Assembly: GCF_004297185.1 (NCBI RefSeq)
Contig: NZ_PGCL01000001.1
Span: forward strand, 372,001-436,000
From: Methanofollis fontis
GTDB taxonomy: Archaea; Halobacteriota; Methanomicrobia; Methanomicrobiales; Methanofollaceae
Direction: 5' to 3'
DNA: 64,000 bases
The notes beneath the pieces were generated by a model. The model ran no database searches. It was not told where the DNA came from and saw nothing but the letters and a program-made list of their open reading frames with translations. Numbering within the stretch: the first letter of the stretch is position 1; every line of letters begins with the position of its first letter. Below, in pieces: positions 3,728-6,831 of the stretch. The translations under genes were made by a program, and so were the position numbers.

Positions 3728-4933
3728 TCAGGCGCCCGGTCCCGGGAGGTGCCGTTCCACCTCCCAAGCTACTTCACGGAGGCTGATCCCGAGTTCTCGG
3801 GCAATCTGACGCATATCCTCGTACTCGGGCTTGACGGCGATCACCCGTCCGCAGGCCCGAGAGGTCTTCACCCGCACCAGAAAGGTCCGCCCGCCGATGG
3901 GGATTTCCAGCGCCTCACGCCGTCGGTCGGCGACCAGGCGGGGCTCCTCACGGACCCGCACACCCAGAGTGCCGGTCTCCTCCATCAGCACACCGAGGAG
4001 GCGGGAAAAGTGTTCGCGGTCGGTGTTCACTGTGAGCACCTGCACAGGGCGGTTCTTCTTCCCGATGGCCGGCGTGATGAAGGCGTCGGTCGCCCCCTCC
4101 TCGAGGAGACGCCCGAGGGCGTGGGCGACCACCTCGCCGCTGATGTCGTCCAGGTTCGTCTCCAGCATGACGATCCGCTCCTCCACGAGGTCGCTCACCT
4201 CCCCCTCCACTACCCGCAGGATGCTGACGCCATTGCCGTTCGGGCGCGTCCCGGCCCCGTAGCCGGTGCGGACCGGGGTCATCGCCGGGAACCGGTCGGC
4301 AACAACGGCTAGATTGGCGAGGAGGGCGGCGCCGGTCGGGGTGGTCAACTCCATGGTGAGCGGACTTTCGGCCACCGGGATGTGGTGGGCCGCACAGATC
4401 TCGAGGGCGGCAGGCGCCGGTCCGCCGACGGTGCCGCCGCCGGTCCGGATCTCCCCTCCCCCGAGTGCCGGGGGGGTGGCGAGCACCGGGCACCGAGAGA
4501 GCCCGGACTCCTCCATCAGCAGGAGAGGGGCGAGGATATCGAAGATCGTATCGGCCGAGGCCACCGCATGCCGTGAAAACCCCGAGGGGTGGAGGCGCCG
4601 TTCGGCGGCGAGCAGGTCGGCGAGCACCCGCCCCGCCCGTTCCCGCCCCCAGGTGGACAGCCCGACCGAAGCGGCCACATCAGCCAGGGCGGCGGCAAGG
4701 TCACCATCCGATCCGGCGGGCTTTTCCCGCAGTCGGATCGCCAGGCGCCTGGCCCTGACCCCGCCGTCAACCTCCTCGAGCCCGACGGAAAACTCCTCAC
4801 ACCCGGGCAGGGCGGCGATCGCCGCACCCAGGTGTTCGAGGGGCGCTGCCGATCCTGTCAGGTCGGCAAGGGCGGCGGCGAGCATGTCGCCCGAAATCCC
4901 GCCGCCCCTCGGATCGATGAGCAGTGCCCTCAT
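3728..4933 (-). CDS. larC: LarC-like nickel-pincer cofactor nickel insertase (former DUF111)
   Basis: 401 aa, one uninterrupted frame. It begins with the family signature DPRGGGISGDMLAAAL and has the conserved ETNLDDISGEVVAHAL segment in the second half. In the family, LarC uses CTP to insert Ni into pyridinium-3,5-bisthiocarboxylic acid mononucleotide, making the cofactor of lactate racemase LarA. No larA, larB or larE is in this window. Its ATG overlaps the stop of the upstream 617-aa gene by 4 nt, implying a joint function. In some lactobacilli larC is split by a programmed frameshift; here it is not. Confidence 0.9.
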   Translation of the reverse strand: MRALLIDPRGGGISGDMLAAALADLTGSAAPLEHLGAAIAALPGCEEFSVGLEEVDGGVRARRLAIRLREKPAGSDGDLAAALADVAASVGLSTWGRERAGRVLADLLAAERRLHPSGFSRHAVASADTIFDILAPLLLMEESGLSRCPVLATPPALGGGEIRTGGGTVGGPAPAALEICAAHHIPVAESPLTMELTTPTGAALLANLAVVADRFPAMTPVRTGYGAGTRPNGNGVSILRVVEGEVSDLVEERIVMLETNLDDISGEVVAHALGRLLEEGATDAFITPAIGKKNRPVQVLTVNTDREHFSRLLGVLMEETGTLGVRVREEPRLVADRRREALEIPIGGRTFLVRVKTSRACGRVIAVKPEYEDMRQIARELGISLREVAWEVERHLPGPGA

Positions 4934-6783
4934 TCTGCAGGCGGGAAGGGTTCGTTGATCTTCGCATACACCCGCTGCGACAGTTTTGCCACCTCAAGGG
5001 CCTTGTCGCCGGCGCCCGGGATCGCCCGCGTCAGGTAGGCACCGTCCTCGGCACCATATGCGGCGTCCTTCGCCTCGTCACCGATGAGGGCCGCCACCGC
5101 CGCCGGAACGGTGATGTTGATGATGGTGTGTCCGATGTACTGGAGCTCCTGTGTCAGCACCGCCCCGCAGAAGAGGGCGATCGGCCAGTCCGGGTTGTCC
5201 CGGTTCTTGCCCTCCAGGACAAAGGCCGGCACCTCCTTCCCGCTCAGGTTGTCCACATGGTAGGTCTTGCCGTCGATGGTGACGTCGTAGGCGACATTGG
5301 AGTCAAAGCCCCAGTAGCGTGCAGTGAATTTGTCGGTCCGGCGACCGTGGGGCTTGATGGAGGTGTATTTGAACTCGATTTTCTTGCCGGTGAACCCCGA
5401 GAGGATCGCCGACCCCCGGCGCTCGACATAGGCCTGCCGCTCCTCGTCGAGGGTGTGCGTCGCCTCGGCCACCGTCCGTCCGGCCTTCATCAGGTCGTAG
5501 GTGTGGGCGGCCCGCCGGTAGATCGCCCGGTCCCGCACCCCTTCGGACGCCAGGATGCAGGCCTTTGTGATGCGGCCGCGGGTCACCTGCTCGGCCTTGC
5601 GCGCAATCGTGTTCAGCCCGCAGAGCGCCATCTCGGGGTCGATGAAGGAGTTCATCTTGTAGTCCCGGATCGCCTCCGCAACGGCGAAGACGTCGCCGCC
5701 GTATTTCACGAGCAGACGCATCGCCGGGACGCAGTCGCCCTCCAGGTGGCCGAGGGGCGGGTTCACCGGCCCACCGGAGAAGCCCGCACCGATCATCGCC
5801 GCCTCCTCGAATCCGGCCATGATCTCGGAGAGCGCCATCGAGCCGATGACCGACGGTCCGCCGATGTCCTTGAGGATCAGCCCGAAGTCGCCGAGCACCT
5901 TGGCGGTGTCGTACTCCTCGTGCGTGCCGCGGATATGGAGTTTTTCCGGCAGACCGGCGGCGTCACGGGCGCCCTTCCCGGCGAGATAGGCCGAGTCCAC
6001 CCGACCGAACTTGCCGAACTCCTCCCCGAGCAGGGCGTCGGGGTGGACGAGCTCCATCGTCACCGCCGCACCGATCATGGCCGGCCATAGGGCGTAGGGG
6101 GTGATCCCCGCACCCTCCATGCTCCGCATCATCGCCTCGGTCCCGGCTTTGGCGGCGTTGTAGGCGAGTTCTGGGATGTTGTAGTCCTCGCCGAGGGCCG
6201 AATGACCGTAGATCGCCCCGCCGGCAATGAAGGGCGGGAGGACGGCGCCGTCCACCTGTGTCAGTTTCTTCCCCAGCAGCCCCTCGTAGATCGCCATATA
6301 GGCCGGGAAGGCCTGGATGCGGTGGGTGAACTTGCCGGTGACGAGAGCAATGGCGCTTGTCCGGGCAGCGCCGGCATGGATCCGGGCGATCGCACCGAGT
6401 TTGCGGTTGCCGAGCGGCACACCGGAACGGGCGCAGGAGCCCGAGAAATAGGCGAGCGATGCCACGATCAGGGCGGCATTCGCCGGTTCGGCCCCGGCGT
6501 TCATCGCCGCCCGCACGGCCTTCTCGATCACCATGTCAAGCGGGAGTTCGGGGGCGGCGGCGTCCACCACGGTCATCCGCCCCATCAGGCTCATCTCCTC
6601 CCCCCCGATGGGACAGAAGATGTCCTCGGCAAGGGAGTTTGCCGCAGCAAACACCGGGATTACCAGAGACCCGTGCCCCTTTGTCGCCGCCTCGAGTTTG
6701 TCATTCGTCATCGAGTCCGGTTCAAACGTCGACGCCATCGTAGCGGCGAAGATGACCTTGTCTTTCTCATGCCCATCAGACAT
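4930..6783 (-). CDS. Conserved protein of unknown function, translationally coupled to larC
   Basis: 617 aa, which I do not recognise. It is rich in Gly and Ala but shows no clear membrane helices or signal peptide. Features are a Cys-containing SGSCARSG near residue 120, HxGAARTSAIALVTGK near 140, a His/Gly-rich GGAIYGHSALGED near 190, and a C-terminal part that looks like a separate beta-rich domain (from about residue 460). A good ribosome binding site (AAGGAGGG at 6791-6798) supports the ATG at 6783. The 4-nt overlap with larC makes it a candidate user, or helper in synthesis, of a nickel-pincer-type cofactor; that is inference only. Confidence 0.75.
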   Translation of the reverse strand: MSDGHEKDKVIFAATMASTFEPDSMTNDKLEAATKGHGSLVIPVFAAANSLAEDIFCPIGGEEMSLMGRMTVVDAAAPELPLDMVIEKAVRAAMNAGAEPANAALIVASLAYFSGSCARSGVPLGNRKLGAIARIHAGAARTSAIALVTGKFTHRIQAFPAYMAIYEGLLGKKLTQVDGAVLPPFIAGGAIYGHSALGEDYNIPELAYNAAKAGTEAMMRSMEGAGITPYALWPAMIGAAVTMELVHPDALLGEEFGKFGRVDSAYLAGKGARDAAGLPEKLHIRGTHEEYDTAKVLGDFGLILKDIGGPSVIGSMALSEIMAGFEEAAMIGAGFSGGPVNPPLGHLEGDCVPAMRLLVKYGGDVFAVAEAIRDYKMNSFIDPEMALCGLNTIARKAEQVTRGRITKACILASEGVRDRAIYRRAAHTYDLMKAGRTVAEATHTLDEERQAYVERRGSAILSGFTGKKIEFKYTSIKPHGRRTDKFTARYWGFDSNVAYDVTIDGKTYHVDNLSGKEVPAFVLEGKNRDNPDWPIALFCGAVLTQELQYIGHTIINITVPAAVAALIGDEAKDAAYGAEDGAYLTRAIPGAGDKALEVAKLSQRVYAKINEPFPPAE

Positions 6784-6831
6784 TTCTTATCCCTCCTTTC
6801 CGATGATCCTGACTGAAGACTTCCCGGTACA

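Follow-up and report, generated by a model that had tools for sequence, protein, structure and literature searches.

A LarC-linked protein family of archaea and rhizobia as a candidate nickel-pincer nucleotide enzyme unrelated to LarA

A 64,000-nucleotide stretch of the Methanofollis fontis genome (NCBI RefSeq assembly GCF_004297185.1, contig NZ_PGCL01000001.1, positions 372,001 to 436,000 of the forward strand; the window hereafter) carries a 617-residue open reading frame (ORF) that overlaps the start of a LarC-like ORF. LarC belongs to the pathway that makes the nickel-pincer nucleotide (NPN), the cofactor of the lactate racemase LarA, and the locus raises the question of what a large protein of no recognised family does beside it. 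The initial annotation described two ORFs with a 4-nt overlap and suggested that the larger product either is a hitherto unrecognised user of the cofactor or helps to make it; both ORFs are indeed present, on the minus strand, joined by the ATGA at 4930-4933. On the basis of sequence comparisons we propose, with a probability of roughly 0.6, that the 617-residue family is the apo-enzyme of an NPN system that operates without LarA and is served by a dedicated LarC-type partner. The features of the locus are as follows.

4930..6783, minus strand: 617-residue ORF; candidate NPN-dependent enzyme unrelated to LarA, with no Pfam, NCBIfam or PDB relative
3728..4933, minus strand: LarC-family paralogue of 401 residues, apparently dedicated to the 617-residue gene; LarC1 half degenerate (H-A for H-E), LarC2 half intact
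3809..4174, minus strand: LarC2 (CTP-dependent cyclometallase) domain of the paralogue, residues 254-375 (NF052512); KKxR and seven invariant columns common to the LarC2-only partners
4208..4681, minus strand: diverged LarC1-like region of the paralogue, residues 85-242 (TIGR00299); HE motif lost
4930..4933, minus strand: ATGA start/stop overlap of 4 nt between the 617-residue gene and the LarC gene, consistent with translational coupling
6792..6796, minus strand: GGAGG, a Shine-Dalgarno-like stretch 8 nt 5' of the ATG of the 617-residue gene, from direct reading of the sequence

No Shine-Dalgarno-like stretch was seen by direct reading just 5' of the LarC start. The presence of GGAGG before the first gene and its absence before the second fit translational coupling of the pair.

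Linkage to LarC-type partners and to the lar genes

The next gene downstream, in the same orientation, codes for LarC or LarC2 in 57 of the 60 distinct full-length homologues counted, which come from two domains of life; five shorter rows are left out of this count. The linkage is found in Methanomicrobiales, Archaeoglobus, Methanothrix, Methanosarcinaceae, an ANME-2d-like family and plasmids of Rhizobiaceae. The partner is a full-length LarC-like protein in the first three of these lineages and LarC2 alone in the ANME-2d-like genomes; in the Methanosarcinaceae a 590-residue homologue is followed by larC2 and then, in most loci, by larB and a full larC. Other than the lar genes, the archaeal neighbours are not conserved across families. 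An accidental neighbourhood, in which an unrelated gene happens to lie beside a redundant larC copy, would account for the three homologues that have no adjacent LarC and for the fragmented copies in some relatives, but it is already contradicted by the linkage across two domains and by partners that form clades of their own, and we consider it extremely improbable.

The distribution was examined in a sample of 150 genomes of the order and one of 392 genomes of the phylum. Within the order, the 617-residue gene occurs in 41 genomes (fragments included) and PF01969, the Pfam family of LarC, in 143. Of the 41 genomes that have the gene, 38 contain at least two PF01969 matches, compared with 10 of the 109 that lack it (Fisher p about 1e-22); second matches may include fragments of split genes, and some of these 10 genomes probably owe theirs to split genes. 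A profile search of the phylum sample recovered the family in 46 genomes, belonging to Methanomicrobiales and to four further families, f9, f22, f8 and f14, which we take to include Archaeoglobus fulgidus, Methanothrix, Methanosarcinaceae and ANME-2d-like archaea, respectively. All 46 have strong matches to LarB (E <= 1e-67) and LarE (E <= 1e-53). LarB is above its cut-off in 347 of the 392 genomes (association with the family, Fisher p 0.005), and because it is so common the co-occurrence with LarB and LarE is by itself modest evidence. Strong LarA (E <= 1e-46) is present in 16 of the 46 genomes; the 30 without it comprise all 26 Methanomicrobiales (best partial match E 4.7e-5) and the genomes G240, G352, G356 and G433.

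The genome of the window (2.36 Mb in 22 contigs, 98.5% complete) contains a second, canonical larC (C1:636036, 387 bits), larB (C3:533106, 244 bits) and larE (C3:552310, 207 bits). No larA was found above cut-off in this genome, the best PF09861 (Lar_N) match scoring 19 bits, below the cut-off. With larB, larE and a canonical larC present and larA absent, the genome is expected to make NPN and has no known user for it. Several expectations of the initial annotation can be judged from these results. Its statement that larA is missing extends from the locus to the whole genome, so a larA elsewhere does not explain the larC; of the genes that it proposed to look for, larB and larE were found, together with the second larC, and larA above cut-off was not; and the 617-residue family is not widespread without the lar genes, since all 46 genomes that have it in the phylum sample also have larB and larE. 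Its premise that larC is out of place in a methanogen has to be abandoned, as nearly all sampled Methanomicrobiales have larB, larC and larE, with or without the 617-residue gene, and most of these genomes have no strong larA.

The 19-bit PF09861 match is a DUF362-ferredoxin protein of 397 residues with an inserted ferredoxin domain (L094:3470-4663, in G000:C2). The genome has no other weak Lar_N match, and this protein is a possible alternative NPN user for methanogens that have larBCE only. DUF362 (PF04015) shares a Pfam clan with LarA (PMC11770544) and provides a rival candidate user in the same genome, whereas the 617-residue family is, by Pfam, not related to DUF362 in sequence.

On rhizobial plasmids the genes form a self-contained cassette. 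A search of plasmids recovered homologues in five records of Rhizobiaceae, with 45-46% identity across 93-96% of the query. Rhizobium tropici CIAT 899 and Rhizobium sp. CCGE532 have the gene order [594-residue hypothetical protein]-larC2-larC-[larE]-larB-HoxN/HupN/NixA transporter; the same order was read from the ORFs of CB3090, and in Ciceribacter the homologue is followed by LarC2 and then LarC (the fifth record, CCGE531, is outside these readings). LarE, LarB, full LarC and LarC2-only proteins exceed their NCBIfam cut-offs in CCGE532 and CB3090, as does the nickel transporter in CB3090. PF09861 has no match on the four whole plasmids. The cassette has all the genes expected for making NPN and importing nickel and shows no other user of the cofactor, which is the strongest argument for a user role of the 617-residue family. 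The other rhizobial neighbours include an amino-acid ABC transporter, MalY/PatB and RidA; the lineages are too few for a substrate to be named from them. In CIAT 899 the larE slot (L185:13607-14413) is annotated as two short ORFs, compared with one intact larE in CCGE532 and CB3090, and this larE may be broken.

Fragmentary copies of the 617-residue gene were seen at G042:C1:1136989-1137655, G112:C1:452653-452993, G063:C31 and G032:C29. The first looks like an internally deleted pseudogene and the other three may be remnants or contig ends. This may mean that some lineages can do without the gene or lost it recently, or simply that the contigs end there. Two Methanomicrobiales genomes, G043 and G112, carry a third, unusually strong LarB beside a LarC1-type ORF of 253-254 residues (L169, L170), which suggests an extra, separately acquired lar set.

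The LarC and LarC2 partners

The LarC-like ORF of the window matches PF01969 with 283 bits over profile positions 1-374 of 375, TIGR00299 (LarC1) at 100 bits against a threshold of 90, and NF052512 (LarC2) at 115 bits against one of 50. It resembles the LarC nickel insertase (TIGR00299 plus NF052512; PDB entries 12bi and 6bwo) over nearly its full length and keeps the LarC2 signature. In a tree built on the LarC2 region (104 rows, with six LarC1-type rows left out), the operon LarC proteins (n = 42, support 96/95), the LarC2-only proteins (n = 18, 99/98) and the canonical LarC proteins (n = 31, 94/84) each form one clade; because the program warned of long branches, nothing is concluded from how these clades join.

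The two halves of the partner differ in how well they are kept. The HE motif of LarC1 is present in 30 of 31 canonical proteins and in all 13 full LarC proteins encoded in the same operons, whereas among the 42 operon LarC proteins just 10 have it. It was not found in the other 32, of which 15 have no match at all to the motif pattern, and the window protein reads H-A at the site. The KKxR of LarC2, in contrast, is present in all 104 rows, the window protein included, and seven columns are invariant across 23 aligned LarC and LarC2 proteins of all kinds. In the Methanosarcinaceae, the ANME-2d-like family and the rhizobia the partner is LarC2 alone. With a clade of its own, a LarC1 motif that is mostly lost and a CTP-dependent LarC2 half that is kept, the operon LarC is, as judged from these alignments, a specialised paralogue. 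It is not the canonical LarC that would be expected to complete the cofactor, the step to which the initial annotation had assigned it. As the LarC2 half is kept in all partners and the LarC1 half is diverged or absent, the need that the 617-residue protein shares across lineages appears to be for the LarC2 half.

The same observations allow a reading in which LarC2 was recruited for some other CTP-dependent reaction of a different nucleotide or metal pathway, with the lar genes supplying only a precursor. The degenerate or missing LarC1 half would be in keeping with this, as would the existence elsewhere of a stand-alone LarC2-like protein, MK0293 (PDB entry 3c19), which is among the PDB sequence matches. 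The rhizobial operon, however, holds larB, larE and larC together with a nickel transporter, and larB and a full larC adjoin the pair in most Methanosarcinaceae loci; we therefore regard a pathway other than that of NPN as quite improbable.

At L136:10849-12050, in a genome that is presumably that of A. fulgidus, two ORFs, of 102 and 302 residues, stand in place of one operon LarC, owing to a frameshift or a sequencing error.

The 617-residue protein and its relation to LarA

Twenty-nine sequences, including the window protein, align over nearly their full length, with homologues at 70-92% identity. The ratio of nonsynonymous to synonymous substitution rates (dN/dS) against L004, the closest homologue tested, is 0.044/0.352, so the protein is under constraint; from the alignment and this ratio the ORF is judged to be a real gene. 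Five His residues, several Lys residues and the stretch NRKLG are invariant across 20 aligned archaeal and rhizobial homologues, which share 42-87% identity with the window protein. The invariant positions include H37, K88, N126-R127-K128, K151, H194, E199-D200, H247, H283, K305-D306, H346 and R481-R482.

The protein has no convincing match in Pfam, NCBIfam or the PDB sequences, and a PDB profile search with the family gave nothing better than E 0.07. No relatives were found in viral contigs. An AlphaFold model based on 33 archaeal sequences has a mean predicted local distance difference test score (pLDDT) of 80.5 and a predicted template modelling score (pTM) of 0.85, and is mostly helical; an earlier model built on close relatives only (pLDDT 58) was not used. 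Foldseek against the PDB returned nothing at E <= 0.001 (best E 0.2), and no LarA chain is among the best 50 matches listed. When Foldseek's own list was re-scored with VIA, the highest Z was 6.4 and spanned 81 residues, within the stated noise of the tool, and the BFVD viral models contain no match to the model. The lack of a PDB match for a predicted structure does not prove a new fold. A membrane protein was also considered and rejected, as no 19-residue stretch has a mean Kyte-Doolittle value above 1.66.

A divergent LarA was likewise rejected at the level of sequence, on Pfam, genome and hhalign comparisons. Taken together, 33 family members match nine Pfam families at E <= 1, and PF09861 is not one of these; an hhalign comparison of the family alignment with 12 LarA sequences of the phylum is not significant (probability 0.9%, E 0.06, 79 columns). 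In that match 'AGFSGG' of the 617-residue family stands opposite 'AGYSGG' of LarA; the motif is not kept in the rhizobia and the likeness is therefore taken as chance. By these sequence comparisons the 617-residue protein is not a LarA.

A cofactor user or a partner in making the cofactor

Orphan lar genes have been noted before. About 15% of genomes, many cyanobacteria included, carry larBCE without larA, and NPN-binding proteins unlike LarA have been predicted (PMC11796402). LarA homologues occur in 29.5% of archaeal species (PMC11770544), and for Haloferax possible LarB, LarC and LarE are listed, with the remark that a nickel-pincer enzyme may exist there (PMC8305020). The mass of NPN is given as about 449 Da (PMC12611868). 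The NPN enzymes described in the accessible text of this literature all belong to the LarA family. The genome of the window, with larB, larC and larE and no larA, corresponds to the predicted situation; the accessible text of PMC11796402 names no protein, whereas a concrete family is available here. No description of the 617-residue family was found in literature searches, in which coverage of subscription papers was limited.

The closest known system is the larABCE lactate racemase system (LarA superfamily, DUF2088/PF09861). Both have operonic larB, larC and larE, with a nickel transporter in the rhizobia, and both leave one protein-coding slot for the cofactor user. In the 617-residue systems, by contrast, this slot is filled by a protein of about 600 residues that has no LarA sequence match and a mostly helical model with no significant Foldseek match in the PDB, and there is an additional LarC or LarC2. 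In the proposed system LarB, LarE and LarC would make the NPN cofactor, and the dedicated LarC-type partner, whose CTP-dependent LarC2 half seems to be all that is required, would finish or modify it or load it onto the 617-residue protein. The latter would bind NPN or a derivative and would probably catalyse hydride transfer, as a racemase or an epimerase does, with a 2-hydroxy acid or a similar small molecule as substrate.

The main rival is a biosynthetic role, in which the 617-residue protein and its LarC2-type partner modify, store or deliver NPN or pyridinium-3,5-bisthiocarboxylic acid mononucleotide (P2TMN) to a LarA or DUF362 enzyme. The archaeal pairing is always with a LarC2-type biosynthetic domain and not with metabolic genes, strong LarA accompanies the family in 16 of 46 genomes, and the window's genome encodes the DUF362-ferredoxin protein, whose DUF362 region belongs to the clan of LarA (PMC11770544). 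The rhizobial cassette, on the other hand, is otherwise complete with no larA or obvious enzyme and has the 617-residue homologue as its first gene; the canonical LarB, LarC and LarE suffice for NPN in the systems described in PMC11796402; and the size of the protein and its many invariant polar residues suit an enzyme. We consider the biosynthetic role tentative and distinctly less probable than that of a cofactor user. The association that the initial annotation drew between the protein and the cofactor is supported by the lar linkage across two domains and by the missing larA, a user being the more probable of its two alternatives.

Several observations weigh against a LarA-independent user. 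The family is not always a replacement for LarA, given the 16 genomes that have both. Three of the 60 homologues, L013 (in G072), L022 (in G100) and L035, lack an adjacent LarC, although for L035 only 569 nt of downstream sequence is available. In the sampled Methanomicrobiales larBCE mostly occur without the 617-residue gene, so that LarBCE must there supply a different NPN user or serve some other purpose. The loss of HE from the operon LarC could mean that nickel insertion has been lost; the Lys-His NPN site of LarA cannot be mapped onto the 617-residue protein, as the profile comparison is not significant; and the rhizobial search for larA covers the four plasmids and not the chromosomes.

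The 617-residue family is a concrete candidate for the predicted non-LarA NPN protein. If the LarA-independent user is correct, organometallic nickel chemistry with this cofactor would extend to a second fold, and the recurrent LarC2-only protein would gain a role. The rhizobial cassette is ready-made for transfer to Escherichia coli, and homologues are at hand in Archaeoglobus and Methanosarcina. As most larBCE-bearing Methanomicrobiales are without the gene, it is not a general answer to orphan larBCE, and most such sets in this order would stay unexplained by it.

A further, rather unlikely possibility concerns the form of the cofactor. Molybdopterin cytosine dinucleotide offers an analogy for a dinucleotide form of NPN. 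LarC from Moorella is reported to cytidinylylate P2TMN on its phosphate and to hydrolyse the bond once nickel is in place (PMC11796402); a specialised LarC2 could stop before hydrolysis. The LarC2 partner, in many lineages without a functional LarC1 half, might then leave a stable cytidinylylated NPN dinucleotide as a new form of the cofactor, and the 617-residue family might be the first member of a second class of NPN enzymes that has no structural relation to LarA.

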